Below, piece after piece: positions 3,777-10,831 of a stretch of DNA of 20,997 nucleotides. Every line of letters starts with the position of its first letter. Position 1 is the stretch's first letter. Under the pieces are notes generated by a model. That model saw only the letters and a list, made by a program, of their open reading frames with translations, made no database searches and was not told the origin of the DNA. The DNA comes from a virus. The position numbers and the translations under genes are program-made. Location of the stretch: positions 1-20,997 of the IMG/VR virus record IMGVR_UViG_3300005747_000097. The stretch is one strand, 5' to 3'.

Positions 3777-6608
3777 GTGGCAGGATATACAAGACAATCT
3801 TCAGCAGATATTATTGCAACGGCTGTTGTACGTGCTAATCCGCTTAACGTAGAATACAATGCTATTCGAGATGCCTTTAGCGCAAGCACAGGACACAAGC
3901 ACGATGGTACTACGGCAGAAGGTGCATATGTACCTTTAATTGCTGACTCAGATGCACTAAACAAAGTAGTTATTGATACAGCAAACAATCGTGTTGGTGT
4001 ATTTGTAGAGGTGTCTAGTGCTGCTGTAGAACAAATACGTATACAAGACGGTGCAATTGTCCCTGTTACCACTAATGATATTGATTTAGGCACATCTAGC
4101 CTACAGTTTAAAGATTTGTATCTTGATGGTACAGCCACAATAGACGTATTGCAAGTAGACACTAACTCTACTCTTACCGGAAATCTTACAGTAAATGGAA
4201 ACACTACACTTGGAAATGCTGCAAGTGACACAGTTACAGTTACTGCAGATGTGGCCTCTCCTCTATTACCTTCTGCTGATGATACATACGACTTAGGTGC
4301 TGTAGGCTCTGAGTGGCGTAATTTGTACGTTGACGGTACTGCTACCATTGATGCCCTAGTAGCTGACACGGCAGATATTAACGGCGGTACAATAGATGGT
4401 GCTACTATTGGTGGGGCTAGTGCTGCTGCTGGTACATTTACATCCTTAAATGCTTCTGGTACATCTACACTTGCTACAGTAGACATTAATGGTGGTGCTA
4501 TTGACGGTACTATTATTGGTGCTAATTCTGCTGCTGCTATTACAGGCACAACAATCACTGGTACGTCCCTTGTTGGCCCAGTTACAGGTGATATAACAGG
4601 TAACGCAGATACTGCAACAGCATTAGAAACAGCACGTACTATTGGCGGTGTATCTTTTGATGGTACTGCTAATATCAACCTTCCCGGTGTAAATACTTCA
4701 GGCAATCAGGACACTTCAGGTAATGCTGCTACAGCTACAGCATTAGAGACTGCTCGTACTATAGGTGGTGTTAGCTTTGATGGTACGGCTAACATAAGTC
4801 TTCCGGGCGTTAACACCACAGGCAATCAGGACACATCTGGCAATGCTGCTAGTGCAACTGTATTAGAAACAGCTAGGTCAATTGCTGGTCAATCTTTTGA
4901 CGGTAGTGCAAACATTACCATTGCTGCTACAGATTTGTCGGACACTGACCAGAGTTTAGCTACAAGTGATAACGTACAGTTTGCTCAAGTAACCACCACT
5001 GGTAATGCTATTATCGGTGGTAACTTAACAGTAAATGGTACTACAACTACAGTTAACTCAAGTAATATGACTGTGGATGACCAGCTTATTGAATTAGGCA
5101 ATGGACGTTCAGGTTCAGCTTCTGGTGATGCAGGTATTGTTATTGAACGTGGTAGCGATGCTAATGCGTTTATTGGCTTTGATGAGAGTGCAGATAAATT
5201 TACTGTAGGTACTGGCACATTTACAGGTGCATCTACTGGCGACCTCACTATTACTACAGGTACACTTGTAGCTAACATTGAAGGTAATATTACTGGTGAT
5301 GTTACAGGCAATGCCGATACAGCTACTGCACTAGAAACTGCACGTACAATTGCTGGTCAGTCTTTTGATGGTACAGCTAATATTAGTATTGCACCCACTG
5401 ACCTTACAGGTGTAAATGCTACTGCTGCTGAAATAAATATTGTAGATGGTGACACATCAGCTACTGCTACTACTCTTGCAGATGCAGACAGGGTTGTAGT
5501 CAATGATGCTGGTACTATGAAGCAGGTAGCATTAACTGACTTTGAAACATATTTTGAGACATCTTTAGATACACTTAGTAATGTAACAACTGTAGGTGCA
5601 TTAAATAGTGGTAGTATTACAAGTGGTTTTGGTGCTATTGACAATGGTTCAAGTGCTATTACCACTACAGGTACAGTAACATTTGGTAGTATTACAGACG
5701 GTACTATAACTGCTACTGGATTTGTAGATGAAGATAACATGTCTTCTAACAGTGCAGTACTTATTCCAACACAACAATCTGTAAAAGCTTATGTAGATAG
5801 TGTAGCCGCAACATCTAATAACGTAACAGGTCTTAATGCTACAGGCGCAGAGCTAAACACAGTAGCTGACTTTTCTGCTGTAAGTGTAGACACAAGTACC
5901 GCAATAGCTAACAATGATGCCCTACTAGTATTTGACAATGGCAACAATATTGGTTATCGTGATGTAGACTTACTAGACACATACTTCTCAGCTACAACCA
6001 AAACACTTACTAATAAAACACTAACAAGTCCTATTGTAACAGGTATGCACCTTAACGACTCAGGCTTTACTGTAGAAGGTTCTGCTGCAGACGGTAATGA
6101 TACTACTGTAGCATTTACAAACCCTACGGCTAACCGTACAATTACCTTCCCTAATGCTACGGGTAATGTAGCTGTATTTACTACGGCTCCTGCTGCAGCT
6201 ATTGCTGATGGTACTAATGGACAAGTCTTAACTACAAACGGTTCAGGTGTATTATCTTTTGCTACTACAAGTGGTTACACCCACCCTAATCACACAGGTG
6301 AGGTTACTTCATCATCAGATGGTGCAACTGTTATTGCTGACAATATAGTAGATGAGGCCAACCTAAAAGTTAGTAACAGTCCTGTTAATGGTTATTTTCT
6401 TTCAGCACAATCTGGTAATACTGGTGGTTTAACTTGGGCTGAGGTAGCGACAGGTGCTGTAAACGATATATTTTATGAGAATGGTCAAACAGTTGATGCT
6501 AACTACACAATTACAAGTAATAAAAATGCAGTAAGTGCTGGTCCTGTAAGCATAGCATCGGGCGTTACAGTTACAGTACCTTCAGGATCAAGATGGGCGG
6601 TGGTATAA
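3777..6608 (+). CDS. Large repeat-rich tail fibre protein
   Basis: 943 residues. The start is GTG at 3777, four bases after the previous stop, with GGAGA at 3766-3770; no in-frame ATG lies near. Residues about 20-55 (NVEYNAIRDAFSASTGHKHDG) match the N-terminal virion-attachment region seen in many podovirus fibres. The shaft is built from familiar marine-phage modules: DLGTSSLQFKDLYLDGTATID (about 102-122), a second DLGAVGSEWRNLYVDGT copy, DINGGTIDGATIG, and 40-residue repeats around ATALETARTIGG (see repeat entry). The distal part contains TLTNKTLTSPIV, NRTITFPNATGNV, HPNHTGEVTSS and NGYFLSAQSGNTGGLTW. It ends in VTVTVPSGSRWAVV, a common last segment of such fibres. Likely a trimeric side fibre or fibre shaft. 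No intramolecular chaperone domain is visible. Confidence 0.8.
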   Translation: MAGYTRQSSADIIATAVVRANPLNVEYNAIRDAFSASTGHKHDGTTAEGAYVPLIADSDALNKVVIDTANNRVGVFVEVSSAAVEQIRIQDGAIVPVTTNDIDLGTSSLQFKDLYLDGTATIDVLQVDTNSTLTGNLTVNGNTTLGNAASDTVTVTADVASPLLPSADDTYDLGAVGSEWRNLYVDGTATIDALVADTADINGGTIDGATIGGASAAAGTFTSLNASGTSTLATVDINGGAIDGTIIGANSAAAITGTTITGTSLVGPVTGDITGNADTATALETARTIGGVSFDGTANINLPGVNTSGNQDTSGNAATATALETARTIGGVSFDGTANISLPGVNTTGNQDTSGNAASATVLETARSIAGQSFDGSANITIAATDLSDTDQSLATSDNVQFAQVTTTGNAIIGGNLTVNGTTTTVNSSNMTVDDQLIELGNGRSGSASGDAGIVIERGSDANAFIGFDESADKFTVGTGTFTGASTGDLTITTGTLVANIEGNITGDVTGNADTATALETARTIAGQSFDGTANISIAPTDLTGVNATAAEINIVDGDTSATATTLADADRVVVNDAGTMKQVALTDFETYFETSLDTLSNVTTVGALNSGSITSGFGAIDNGSSAITTTGTVTFGSITDGTITATGFVDEDNMSSNSAVLIPTQQSVKAYVDSVAATSNNVTGLNATGAELNTVADFSAVSVDTSTAIANNDALLVFDNGNNIGYRDVDLLDTYFSATTKTLTNKTLTSPIVTGMHLNDSGFTVEGSAADGNDTTVAFTNPTANRTITFPNATGNVAVFTTAPAAAIADGTNGQVLTTNGSGVLSFATTSGYTHPNHTGEVTSSSDGATVIADNIVDEANLKVSNSPVNGYFLSAQSGNTGGLTWAEVATGAVNDIFYENGQTVDANYTITSNKNAVSAGPVSIASGVTVTVPSGSRWAVV
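4611..4920 (+). repeat. In-frame 120-base tandem repeat in the fibre gene
   Basis: The ATALETARTIGGVSFDG-type motif begins at 4614, 4734 and (diverged, ATVLETARSIAG) 4854, a period of exactly 120 bases or 40 residues. Two units are full (4611-4730 and 4731-4850); the third matches through about base 4920 and then diverges. An isolated fourth copy of the same motif lies at about 5319-5400. Synonymous differences between copies show that they are not a very recent duplication. Confidence 0.8.
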
Positions 6609-7748
6609 ATGGGTAAGATTAAAGTAGATACAGTTACTAATTTAGCTGGGACAGGTGCGCCGAACATATCAGATGGTGTTACAATTGGTGGTGTGGCTTT
6701 AGCTTCTGTAAATAAACAAGAGCATTACGCACAGAGTGCAGCACCGACTAGTCCTGCTGATGGTGCAGTGTGGTATGATACAGATGATGACAAAGCGTAT
6801 GTTTATATTAACAGTGAGTTTTATGAATTAACGTATACTAATTTACCTACTAACGCAGGTAATCGTGGTGTGTTTGGTGGGGGAGATAATGGTTCTGGAT
6901 CGGGTACTGCTTGGCAAAACGTAATAGACTATATAAGCATTCCTACTGCAGGAAACGCTACAGATTTTGGTAATCTTACTCAAGCAATATCAATGGGTGC
7001 ATCCGCTTCTAATGGTAATAGAGGCGTGTTTGCTGGGGGTTTAAATGGGAGTACCGTATATAATATAATAAACTACATTACTATAGCTAGTGCAGGAAAT
7101 GCTACAGATTTCGGTGATCTTACAGTGGCTAGAAGGCAGGTAGGAGGATGTTCCGATAGCAGTAGGGGTGTTTTTGGAGGCGGTAATTCTAGTGGTGGTG
7201 CAAATAACTATGTTGATGTAATAGACTACATTACTATAGCATCAACAGGCAATGCAACAGACTTTGGTAATTTAACTGTCAGTAGAGGTGGTGTTACAGC
7301 AGAAGCTAATCTAACTAGAGCTTTGTTTGGTGGGGGACATGCTCCCAGTAACGTAATAGATTATATTACGGTAGCATCTGCGGGTAATGCAACAGACTTT
7401 GGCGATCTTACTATTGCGATCCACATGCCGGGAAGTTGTTCTAGTTTAACTAGGGCTTTGTTTGCTGGTGGCTATATTGGTGCGCCGTCATATGGCAATA
7501 CCAATACAATTCAATATGTAACTATAGCATCAACAGGCAATGCAACAGACTTTGGCGATCTTACTTTAGCGGCCCAACGACTTGGTGGCACATCAAATCA
7601 CACGAGGGGGGTTTTTGCTGCAGGTAAAACGAGCGAGTCTTCTTTTCTCCCCATAGACTATGTGACTATAGATACTACAGGTAATGCCACGGATTTTGGT
7701 GATCTTAGTGTGTCAAGATATGGCACTGCCGCATGTTCAGGAGATTAA
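6609..7748 (+). CDS. Six-repeat putative beta-propeller tail protein, paralogue 1
   Basis: 379 residues; ATG 6609 follows the fibre stop directly, with GGCGGTGG in the last fibre codons as possible ribosome site. The N-terminal domain (1-85) starts KVDTVTN and contains PTSPADGAVWYDTDDDKAYVYI, a short module common at the N-terminus of phage fibre-like proteins. From R86 to the end there are six repeats of about 44-52 residues with the consensus R-G-V-F-x-G-G, a variable loop, NVIDYITIA-(S/T)-x-GNATDFG-(D/N)-LT-(V)-AR, then a second variable loop. All six carry GNATDFG. The repeat length and the Gly-Gly pair resemble kelch-like blades, so a six-bladed propeller is the natural reading, though this is an inference. 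Likely role: fibre tip, or an accessory adhesin that contacts the host surface. The two following genes are paralogues. Confidence 0.7.
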   Translation: MGKIKVDTVTNLAGTGAPNISDGVTIGGVALASVNKQEHYAQSAAPTSPADGAVWYDTDDDKAYVYINSEFYELTYTNLPTNAGNRGVFGGGDNGSGSGTAWQNVIDYISIPTAGNATDFGNLTQAISMGASASNGNRGVFAGGLNGSTVYNIINYITIASAGNATDFGDLTVARRQVGGCSDSSRGVFGGGNSSGGANNYVDVIDYITIASTGNATDFGNLTVSRGGVTAEANLTRALFGGGHAPSNVIDYITVASAGNATDFGDLTIAIHMPGSCSSLTRALFAGGYIGAPSYGNTNTIQYVTIASTGNATDFGDLTLAAQRLGGTSNHTRGVFAAGKTSESSFLPIDYVTIDTTGNATDFGDLSVSRYGTAACSGD

Positions 7749-9942
7749 ATAATGAGTGAATTTAAAGTATCAAGTATGGAAAATACCTCAGATGGGTCTC
7801 CTTCTTTCTCGCAGGGTTTAAACATAGCTGGGGCAGATATTACGGCAAGCCATGCAATTTCTGAGTACTACACAGGTGCATCAGAACCTAGCAGCCCAGC
7901 TAATGGTGCGTTCTGGTTTGATGGTACAGACTTGTATCAGTATATAAATGGTAAATTTAGGATATTTAGTGTGACGGCACCACCTGCGGTGGGGGATAGA
8001 GCAGTTGCTACTGGTGGAAATGCTGGTAGTTATGATATGCAATATGTATCTATTACTACACCGGGAAACACTACAGACTTTGGTGATCTTACTGTTGCTA
8101 GAGGTAAAGGGGGTAGTGCTTCAAATGGTTCAAGGGGTATATATGCAGGAGGGGAAATAAATGGTTCTCCGTATTTTCAAAATGTAATAGATTATTTTAC
8201 TATAGCAACACCCGGAAATACTACAGATTTTGGTGATCTTACAGTTGCTACGTCAGATGTAGCAGGGTGTTCTAATCCAACTTACGGTATTTTTGCTGGT
8301 GGTAGTTCCTCTGGCGTTGCTGGCTCTAATGTTATAAATTATATAACTATAGCGACTACAGGAAATGCTGTAGACTTTGGTGATCTTACAGTTGCTAGAA
8401 GGCTTGGTGATTGTGGTGCTTCCAATCAAACATACGGACTTTTTGCTGGTGGTAGAAATGCTTCCTATGCTGATGTTAATACAATAGACCGCATTACTAT
8501 AGCAACAGCAGGAAATGCAACAGACTTTGGTGATCTTCTTGGGTCAAGTTTGAGTGTAAGTGGTACTTCTAACCTTACTAGAGCTGTTTTTACAGATGTT
8601 GGAAATGCTAGTGATACAATTTCTTATGTAGCACCAGCTACCCCCGGCAATGCTGCAGACTTCGGTAATCTATCTGTTGGCAGAAGTTTTTCGGCATGTA
8701 CTACAGATTTAACTTACGCTATTTTTATGGGTGGAAGTGGAACAGCAGAGGTAGCTGAAACAATAGATAGGGTTGCAATAGATACTTTAGGTAATGCTAC
8801 AGACTTTGGAAACATGATTGGCACGGTTGATTATTATTATAGTGCGTGTTCAGGAGATTAATTTTATGAGTACAATAAAAGTAGACACAATTACCAATGG
8901 CGGTAGCACTGTAGACTTCACCTACAATGCTAAAGTAGGTGCAGGTAGTGGCACACTCAAAAAAGAGTACTATGAACAATCCACAGAACCTACTTACCCT
9001 TGTGACGGTGCATTATGGTTTAACACTTCTGATGATGTATTTAAAATCTATGCTAATAACGGGTGGTATACTACTGCTGTAGTACAACCTCCCAGTAATT
9101 CTTTTGGTACTAGGGGTGTATTTTCGGGTGGACTAGGTAGTCCTACCAATGTAATTGACTATGTGACTATAGCTAGTCCGGGCAATGCCACTGATTTTGG
9201 CGATCTTACAGTAGCTAGAGGTTATAACTGTGGATGTTCTAACGGCACTAGAGGAATAACTGGTCCCGGTTCACCATCGGGGGGTGGCACTGCTAATAAT
9301 ACACTAGATTATATAACTATAGCTACACCGGGTAATGCCACGGACTTTGGCGATTCGTTCACTACAGGTTATGGTCAAGCAGGTCTTGGTAATAGTGTTA
9401 GAGGTGTATTTGGTGGGGGATGGGTTTCTTCTTATAACGATATAAGTTATATTACTATTGCTACCACAGGCAATGCTACTGAATTTGGTGAATTAGTTAC
9501 ACCGCAGCCAGAAATGGGTGCTACAGCTAATTCCACCAGAGGATTATTTGCTGGGGGATGGTCAGGAACTTCAAATGTTATTCAGTATATCACAATAATG
9601 AGTCCCGGTAATTCTACTGACTTTGGTGATCTTACTGTAGCTAGATTTAGCACAACAGGCGCAGCGTCTGAAACCAGAGCTTTATTTGCTGGCGGTAATA
9701 CCAGCGGAAATGTAATAGACTATGTGACTATAGCTACACCGGGTAATGCCACAGACTTTGGTGACATGACAGTAACAAAAAGTTACAGAGCTGCTGCTTC
9801 TAGTGGTACTAGGGCTATTTTTGGTGGAGGAAGTTCTCAAACAAATGTAATAGACTATGTGACTATATCTACACCGGGTAATGCCACAGACTTTGGAAAC
9901 TTAACTCAATCCAGAGAAGGTGCGGCTGGTTTTGCGGGTAGC
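6864..9942 (+). repeat. Eighteen blade-like protein repeats in three blocks of six
   Basis: Repeat blocks lie at about 6864-7745, 7998-8858 and 9112-9942, each interrupted by a stop codon, a start codon and an N-terminal domain of 82-85 residues. The consensus is RG-(V/L/I)-F-x-GG ... N-V-I-D-Y-(I/V)-T-I-A-x-x-GNATDFGDLTVAR. At DNA level the segment encoding DY-x-TIA-x-x-GNATDFG is nearly identical between several units; for example the copies at about 7519 and 7230, and those at about 9718 and 9850, differ by few bases. Confidence 0.85.
7752..8861 (+). CDS. Six-repeat putative beta-propeller tail protein, paralogue 2
   Basis: 369 residues; ATG 7752 lies three bases after the previous stop. 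The ribosome site AGGAGA (7739-7744) is formed by the last codons of the upstream paralogue. The N-terminal domain (1-82) opens KVSSMEN and contains PSSPANGAFWFDGTDLYQYI. Six repeats run from R83 to the end. The GN-x-x-DFG element reads GNTTDFG, GNTTDFG, GNAVDFG, GNATDFG, GNAADFG and GNATDFG, so this copy has diverged most within the framework. The fifth repeat lacks the Gly-Gly pair (RAVFTDVG), and repeats three, four and six start with Y rather than R. It ends SACSGD like paralogue 1. Presumed receptor-contact or fibre-tip protein, by the same reasoning as its neighbours. Confidence 0.68.
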   Translation: MSEFKVSSMENTSDGSPSFSQGLNIAGADITASHAISEYYTGASEPSSPANGAFWFDGTDLYQYINGKFRIFSVTAPPAVGDRAVATGGNAGSYDMQYVSITTPGNTTDFGDLTVARGKGGSASNGSRGIYAGGEINGSPYFQNVIDYFTIATPGNTTDFGDLTVATSDVAGCSNPTYGIFAGGSSSGVAGSNVINYITIATTGNAVDFGDLTVARRLGDCGASNQTYGLFAGGRNASYADVNTIDRITIATAGNATDFGDLLGSSLSVSGTSNLTRAVFTDVGNASDTISYVAPATPGNAADFGNLSVGRSFSACTTDLTYAIFMGGSGTAEVAETIDRVAIDTLGNATDFGNMIGTVDYYYSACSGD

Positions 9943-9945
9943 TAA
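8866..9945 (+). CDS. Six-repeat putative beta-propeller tail protein, paralogue 3
   Basis: 359 residues from ATG 8866. This start is preferred over the longer frame beginning at 8818 because MSTIKVDTITN aligns with the N-termini of the two upstream paralogues, and because AGGAGA (8852-8857), in the last codons of paralogue 2, sits at a suitable distance. The longer version would also overlap the upstream gene with a low-complexity leader. The N-terminal domain is residues 1-82, with YPCDGALWFNTSDDVFKIY. Six repeats start at R83; four read GNATDFG, one GNATEFG and one GNSTDFG. The second repeat lacks the usual F-x-GG (RGITGPGSP). It ends FAGS instead of CSGD, and no gene follows closely. Role inferred as for paralogues 1 and 2. 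Confidence 0.7.
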   Translation: MSTIKVDTITNGGSTVDFTYNAKVGAGSGTLKKEYYEQSTEPTYPCDGALWFNTSDDVFKIYANNGWYTTAVVQPPSNSFGTRGVFSGGLGSPTNVIDYVTIASPGNATDFGDLTVARGYNCGCSNGTRGITGPGSPSGGGTANNTLDYITIATPGNATDFGDSFTTGYGQAGLGNSVRGVFGGGWVSSYNDISYITIATTGNATEFGELVTPQPEMGATANSTRGLFAGGWSGTSNVIQYITIMSPGNSTDFGDLTVARFSTTGAASETRALFAGGNTSGNVIDYVTIATPGNATDFGDMTVTKSYRAAASSGTRAIFGGGSSQTNVIDYVTISTPGNATDFGNLTQSREGAAGFAGS

Positions 9946-9952
9946 TAAAGAC

Positions 9953-9981
9953 TTGCATTTTTAGTAAAATATCTGTATAAT
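9953..9981 (+). promoter_or_regulatory. Sigma70-type promoter
   Basis: TTGCAT at 9953-9958 and a perfect TATAAT at 9976-9981 are separated by 17 bases, the optimal spacing. The predicted transcription start is about 9988. The site occupies the 64-base gap between the last fibre paralogue and the TTG-started gene at 10010, and points towards the ejection-protein operon. It is the only intergenic promoter of this quality that I found in the window. Confidence 0.75.
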
Positions 9982-10009: not shown

Positions 10010-10831
10010 TTGACTAATGAAATAATAACTACAAGGGTAGCCTTTGATCTACCCATGATACAAGAGAATAAAATTAATACGGCTGCTGTAGCAAAAGTAA
10101 ATGAATTTCTTCCAGAGATAGAAGAAAAAACTCGTAGCTTTGATCGTAACAACAGCCAGCATACTCTATCACTAATGACACTAACTATGCTCAATGGTCA
10201 ATCACCAATGCGTATGATGCGTCAGATTATGGCAGAGATTGAAAAGCGTAAGATGGCATTAGCAGAAGCACAGGTTAGCTACGCAGAAACACAAAAAGAA
10301 ATTCAAGACTTAGAGTTTGAAGATGACCCAATCTCACAAGCAAAGTTTCGTCAAAAGAATGTTTCTATGTTTATGCTAGAGTCAAAGATTAACGGATCGT
10401 TTAAGGATATAGCTACGCTTATTGATCAGTATAATAACATTAAAGAAAAACACGGTATTGACGAATGGGATGAATCTACATTTGAAGCTGAAGAAAAACG
10501 ACACCATGTTCGTAGAGGCTTTGAACTTATGTACCGTAATTTACTAGAAGGTGGTCGTGCGCAAACAGCCACAATTGAGTACCTGCAACAGTATGGGGTA
10601 CATCCACAAGTAGCGTTAACAGAGACCTCTGGTTACGTACAACATACTGGAGAACAAATTAGTAATGGTGTTGTATTACACTCAAATGACTTAGAAGAGT
10701 TTTTAGACCAAATGGCAGATAAGTATTGTGTCAATGTAGACAAAACTGCGGAACGTATGTTTGGCAAAGTAAACTTTACTAATTCTGAATATATGAATCT
10801 TCTAGAAAACAAACAGGAGAAAGAAGAATGA
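10010..10831 (+). CDS. Unknown protein with coiled-coil segment, first gene of promoter-led operon
   Basis: 273 residues from a TTG start at 10010. AGGAG at 9998-10002 is seven bases upstream, and no in-frame ATG lies nearby, so the rare start is well supported. The protein is acidic overall and mostly helical. Residues about 68-110 (MMRQIMAEIEKRKMALAEAQ and onwards) show a charged heptad-like pattern suggestive of a coiled coil. A second helical block follows at about 125-190, and the C-terminus is charged (KQEKEE). I see no catalytic motif, membrane segment or signal peptide. It is followed by an overlapping gene (ATGA). It could be a virion-associated scaffold or assembly protein; I do not recognise the family. 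Confidence 0.65.
   Translation: MTNEIITTRVAFDLPMIQENKINTAAVAKVNEFLPEIEEKTRSFDRNNSQHTLSLMTLTMLNGQSPMRMMRQIMAEIEKRKMALAEAQVSYAETQKEIQDLEFEDDPISQAKFRQKNVSMFMLESKINGSFKDIATLIDQYNNIKEKHGIDEWDESTFEAEEKRHHVRRGFELMYRNLLEGGRAQTATIEYLQQYGVHPQVALTETSGYVQHTGEQISNGVVLHSNDLEEFLDQMADKYCVNVDKTAERMFGKVNFTNSEYMNLLENKQEKEE

Follow-up and report, generated by a model that had tools for sequence, protein, structure and literature searches.

The stretch of DNA analysed here, a virus record of 20,997 bases (IMG/VR record IMGVR_UViG_3300005747_000097, called the window below), carries three co-directional genes immediately 3′ of a tail fibre gene, with the start codon of gene 1 directly after the fibre stop. Each gene encodes a small N-terminal domain, called the docking domain or dock, and a C-terminal head predicted to fold as a six-bladed propeller. 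The start of gene 3 is the ATG at 8866; the mechanical list of open reading frames (ORFs) had a TTG at 8818.

3777..6608, + strand: tail fibre gene, 943 residues, adjoining the trio upstream; N-terminus as in the tail fibre of Roseobacter phage CRP-1
6609..7748, + strand: gene 1, docking type 1 and six-bladed kelch-fold head, 379 residues
6609..6860, + strand: docking domain type 1, residues 1–84 of gene 1
6861..7745, + strand: six-bladed propeller of gene 1, residues 85–379
7701..7745, + strand: C-terminal closing segment of gene 1, a lead-only stub, residues 365–379
7752..8861, + strand: gene 2, docking type 2 and six-bladed head, 369 residues
7752..7994, + strand: docking domain type 2, residues 1–81 of gene 2
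7995..8858, + strand: six-bladed propeller of gene 2
8866..9945, + strand: gene 3, docking type 3 and six-bladed head, 359 residues; start ATG 8866
8866..9108, + strand: docking domain type 3, residues 1–81 of gene 3
9109..9942, + strand: six-bladed propeller of gene 3
10010..10831, + strand: conserved downstream gene, 273 residues

Fold and blade number of the heads

Six GNATDFG-type cores, 45–51 residues apart in units of ~48 residues, are found in each protein, with the variants GNTTDFG, GNAVDFG, GNAADFG, GNATEFG and GNSTDFG, and protein 1 is 49–50% identical to proteins 2 and 3. A sequence-only reading of the window had counted one N-terminal domain and six repeats in each of three adjacent genes, 18 repeats in total, and had suggested a propeller closed at six blades, not an array open to expansion; the ORFs and repeat cores confirm the count, and model, superposition and unit counts bear out the closed ring. 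Unit 1 lacks the leading DLTVAR..S segment with which all other units begin, while a 15-residue stub of this segment stands at the C-terminus of each of the three proteins; this pairing is what a sequence should show when a C-terminal strand completes blade 1 and closes the propeller. AlphaFold2, run on the gene 1 protein with 82 sequences as input, returned a closed propeller and no open solenoid (predicted local distance difference test, pLDDT, 91.3; predicted template modelling score, pTM, 0.81), with 24 strands across residues 86–377, ring closure by strand 374–377 and an alignment to KEAP1 that spans the full range. Kelch domains rank first in Foldseek (target-normalised template modelling score, TMt, up to 0.91), and VIA-align superposes the model on the designed six-bladed kelch protein 7onc with Z 40.2 and on KEAP1 (1x2j) with Z 39.0, at 1.9 Å over 280 residues. 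Each head is confidently predicted from the model to be a closed six-bladed kelch-fold propeller.

With the six-bladed kelch propellers KEAP1, KLHL12, KLHL20 and the designed SAKe6 the heads share the fold of six four-stranded blades, a strand B that ends in GG, a Tyr in strand C, ring closure by the C-terminal strand and a putative ligand face built from the B–C and D–A loops. They differ in sequence (12–17% identity), in the absence of the kelch Trp, in the conserved GNATDFG that forms the strand D region, in their phage tail context and in the hypervariability of their loops. Across ~2120 distinct units the two residues of the double Gly are kept in 86 and 92% and the Tyr in 91%; position seven after the Tyr, a Trp in the Pfam kelch repeat, is Gly in 94%. 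The Pfam kelch models gave no match at E ≤ 5, so that the kinship with kelch that the sequence-only reading had thought worth checking holds in structure (Z 39–40) and fails in the Pfam profiles. Because of this missing match and the replaced Trp, the heads are called kelch-fold rather than members of the kelch family. Pfam, NCBIfam and PDB sequence searches produced no meaningful family, and short, low-information matches of the repeat to PF12573 and NF011005 were discarded. Against isolated phages, tblastn of protein 1 found no match, and with relatives' proteins as query the sole convincing match was Synechococcus phage S-SKS1. Hypothetical proteins of S-SKS1, a kelch-motif protein of BcepSaruman and PHROG 19111 are related to the head in sequence or in fold; trio and docks are undescribed in those entries.

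Relatives were gathered at 80 loci through protein 1, at 80 through the downstream 273-residue protein, which serves independently of the heads, and at further loci through two other heads. By an iterated repeat profile, hundreds of relatives have six units to a gene, far above chance; on 449 distinct complete ORFs this profile counts 6 units in 371, 12 in 44 and 18 in one, the other 33 being split-gene halves that sum to six, full-length ORFs with one or two degenerate units, or fragments. The number of units per propeller is fixed, with no free variation. Tandem repeats could also build an expandable array or a fibre shaft, a reading that the counts of 6, 12 or 18 and the confident closed model refute and to which we assign a negligible chance. 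Units number 12 or 18 in some single ORFs (L076:6281-9080, L008:5046-6900 and L034:4435-6553, where L numbers denote loci of relatives), which would carry two or three propellers per chain; most of the phages concerned have N-terminal parts of other kinds.

Ten heads at nine loci are broken at a fixed point in the B–C loop, where two residues beyond the strand B GG, or one beyond a GGG, a stop codon is followed at once by an ATG:

L005:2473-2500, split head
L016:5604-5631, split head
L115:2867-2894, split head
L047:5492-5498, split head
L090:7624-7657, split head
L107:5775-5802 and 7486-7492, split heads
L135:7447-7474, split head
L291:1206-1212, split head
L292:4238-4241, split head

The junction is TAATG in eight, TAAATG in one and TAATTTATG in one, and the GG codons yield a purine-rich, Shine–Dalgarno-like stretch just upstream of the restart. 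The parts always total six blades. Some of the cases are kin (L005 with L107, L016 with L115), and none of the three genes of the window is split. Random frameshift was rejected as the cause, the break point being identical and the ATG immediate in all ten. From their sequences the split heads look like natural two-chain propellers.

Docking domains kept by position

The docking domains, ~81–84 residues long, begin with a KVDTxTN-type start and contain a P..P..GA.W[YF] motif. Among 13 trios, the best match of a docking domain in another phage lies at the same gene position in 39 of 39 cases, with 48% identity at the same position and 34% (33–35%) between positions. On a tree of the docks from 22 trios the position label changes five times, against a shuffled mean of 31.8, and some of the five changes are due to L145, in which types 2 and 3 stand in swapped order. 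All three types are present in 41 of 44 distinct regions, and the other three regions end at a contig end; enlarged clusters have the orders 1-1-2-2-3-3, 1-1-2-3-2-3, 1-3-1-2-2-2-3 and 1-3-2-2. By this sequence record the docks are three distinct old lineages kept by position. Two points of the earlier reading find no support as they stood: the triple arrangement, taken there as unusual, is the rule in this phage group, and in place of one docking domain common to all heads there are three lineages; it is the heads and not the docks that interchange.

Docks are also found without their heads. A bare type 3 docking domain of ~71 residues lies in position within its set at L112:5638-5896, and a bare type 1 docking domain of ~82 residues, likewise in its place within the set, occupies L114:6453-6792, where the next gene begins immediately and leaves no space for a hidden head. 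At L069, a type 3 docking domain is carried on a different ORF of 544 codons without kelch units. These three loci, at first sight exceptions, are the strongest evidence that the set of docks is required and that heads are optional. Were the three heads instead alternatives competing for one shared docking site, in a mixed or switchable population, the homology of the three docks (33–35% identity between positions) would be readily understood; interchangeable docks, however, would be expected to be lost or homogenised, whereas these are separately conserved lineages, all of them kept, including in duplicated clusters and headless cases, and we regard a shared site as improbable.

Other trios carry unrelated N-terminal parts. 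The window belongs to class A, and the names of classes B to D were coined in this analysis and assigned by motif: class B has a fibronectin-III-like domain in gene 1 and a GVWTL motif in genes 2 and 3, class C a dock motif NHQTND and class D a dock motif LAGN. As far as these sequences go, the trio is the rule in class A and frequent, though not universal, in the other classes.

Exchange of heads and their variable face

The heads bear no signal of position. In the 13 trios propeller identity is 46.8% at the same position and 46.0% at different positions, and on the propeller tree of the 22 trios the position label changes 24 times. Between the window and its relative L009, DNA identity is 86–90% in the docks and 95.6% downstream, against 58–60% in the heads. 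Single positions can differ within one trio: L017 and L036 have docks that are 92–95% identical, with head 1 at 53%, head 2 at 95% and head 3 at 85%, and between L022 and L039 heads 1, 2 and 3 are at 86, 56 and 53%. Among 59 same-position pairs whose docks are at least 75% alike, head identity falls under 65% in 49, reaches 80% or more in 10 and in no pair lies between, a two-peaked distribution that is expected from replacement and not from gradual change. Near-identical heads sit on different docks, at 89.9% for a type 3 against a type 2 dock and at 96.9% and 96.1% between class B docks. The main tail fibre of L107 (L107:1591-5800) itself ends in a kelch-fold head, with four units on the fibre ORF and two on the ORF that follows, and this head is 88.7% identical to the type 2 head of L005. 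These comparisons show, at the level of sequence, that whole heads are exchanged, move between docking types and can pass onto the fibre. A reverse transcriptase of the kind found in diversity-generating retroelements (PF00078), such as would diversify an Mtd-type receptor-binding protein, was present in 0 of 14 related records, which are fragments or of uncertain completeness; exchange by recombination is thus likelier than a retroelement.

In the ~2120 distinct units, high sequence entropy is confined to unit columns 4–9, in the D–A loop, and 24–30, in the B–C loop, the latter also varying in length among units. In the kelch domain of KLHL20, D–A and B–C loops form the substrate surface (PMC6720452), and in that of K13 they lie on one propeller face (PMC6650413). 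By analogy with these loops the varying face would be the ligand face, and the variable face of all six blades would contact the host surface.

Some enzymes, galactose oxidase among them, have a kelch fold. The three proteins could accordingly be enzymes or secreted proteins that merely lie in the tail operon, but the variable face has no conserved column of catalytic appearance, motifs of the docks recur in phage tail-fibre families and in tail-tip genes of phage HMO-2011, a tail fibre bears the same kelch-fold head in L107, and gene 1 starts directly behind the fibre stop; we consider this very unlikely.

A probable three-dock set at the fibre tip

Judged by its sequence, the tail module of the window is of the HMO-2011 type. 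A 594-residue protein is ~57% identical to a protein of Roseobacter phage CRP-1, the N-terminus of the 943-residue fibre closely resembles that of the CRP-1 tail fibre, and HMO-2011, CRP-1 and CRP-2 have the tail module, the fibre N-terminus and the gene order of the window; they differ in the heads, as tblastn found no GNATDFG heads in these isolates. Several related records encode a family A DNA polymerase. In HMO-2011 the corresponding slot (L303:15878-20693) is taken up by some twelve small 'tail fiber' genes, several of which start with LKxDTI or LNVDSI like the docking domain, with profile E values of 3e-4 and 6e-4; going by this motif, they possibly join different heads to a shared docking peptide. 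In the window, the codons of a C-terminal SGD (tcaggagatTAA) in genes 1 and 2 set a Shine–Dalgarno-like AGGAGA before the next start (7737-7754 and 8850-8868), a site absent from gene 3, the last of the trio. A TTGCAT-17-TATAAT at 9953-9981, just 3′ of the trio and under the scan threshold, is perhaps a promoter of the downstream module; the promoter and terminator scan gave a promoter count not above chance expectation.

We consider it likely, with a probability of roughly 0.7, that the trio is an obligate three-dock set at the fibre tip in which each dock carries an exchangeable kelch-fold receptor-binding head. The three genes would then form an adhesin set in which a small dock precedes a closed six-bladed propeller; docking types 1, 2 and 3 must all be there, and what we infer is that the proteins sit on the virion at the tip of the fibre, that they bind receptors and that their docks assemble jointly. 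All three docks are kept even when headless, which makes joint assembly at the tip the most likely arrangement, as a 1:1:1 hub or at three distinct sites. Each propeller can be replaced at one position independently of the others, with recombination between the conserved docking segments as the probable route, and the D–A/B–C face of all six blades would, as in kelch domains, meet the host surface. The association of the trio with the fibre gene is supported, and a tip with several heads, as first proposed, is plausible.

Several points weigh against this reading. The type profiles that assign 62 of 66 docking domains correctly in a leave-lineage-out test were trained on the same family, and the 4 misses of 66 confuse types 1 and 2. 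Modelled alone, the docking domain reaches only moderate values (pLDDT 81, pTM 0.50). Docking residues 37–84 resemble the trimerisation domains of collagen XVIII and XV, parts of phage tailspikes, Mtd and a phage hyaluronidase only weakly (Z 5.0 at best). An N-terminal domain like collagen XVIII is known from a phage lyase (PMC8822698). Class C includes single head genes in L105 and L133, so that the trio is not universal outside class A.

How the docks would assemble divides the preferred reading into two versions, both compatible with the data. In one, a 1:1:1 hub of types 1, 2 and 3 would cap the fibre and show three individually replaceable heads together, some relatives having propellers split by stop and restart; this remains a tentative proposal, with the odds against it. 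In the other, three separate homotrimers would form, each dock on its own fibre or tail site, branched or serial, and with no mixed trimer, an arrangement to which we give somewhat less than an even chance. The modules that residues 37–84 weakly resemble are mostly homotrimeric, some expanded clusters are unbalanced (1322, 1312223), and the spikes of Ackermannviridae employ distinct docks within one branched complex (PMC11414711); the retention of a headless dock to complete the set suits the mixed hub slightly better.

The three-dock set with exchangeable heads has close known counterparts in the branched complexes of tailspikes that Ackermannviridae (CBA120, S117) and G7C-type phages carry, in which several receptor-binding proteins have distinct conserved N-terminal docks and exchangeable C-terminal heads (PMC11414711). 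The trio differs in having kelch-fold propellers for heads instead of tailspikes and in consisting of three small, similarly sized proteins that follow a single fibre; with regard to XD/TD (gp10-like) docking domains, its docks give weak matches to CBA120 TSP3 and TSP4 among others. By this analogy the trio would work like the Ackermannviridae complexes (PMC11414711), built from other parts. Propellers have been used or suggested for host binding in phi11 (five-bladed), PRD1 P2 and PhiKZ gp131C (seven-bladed) (PMC4901313); these differ in having other blade numbers and families and in being part of one large protein, with no swappable trio. What is new is the logic of an obligate three-dock set with exchangeable six-bladed heads, and not the triple itself.

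With constant, position-specific docks and swappable heads, this group of marine podoviruses would have a simple architecture for altering which hosts are recognised. The evolution of docks differs so much from that of heads that sequence alone separates the parts for assembly from those for recognition, and in the headless docks the assembly function stands by itself. In the split heads, nature has run an experiment on how propellers assemble. If the reading is true, these phages hold a natural collection of six-bladed scaffolds for binding, whose hypervariable loops lie on a single face.

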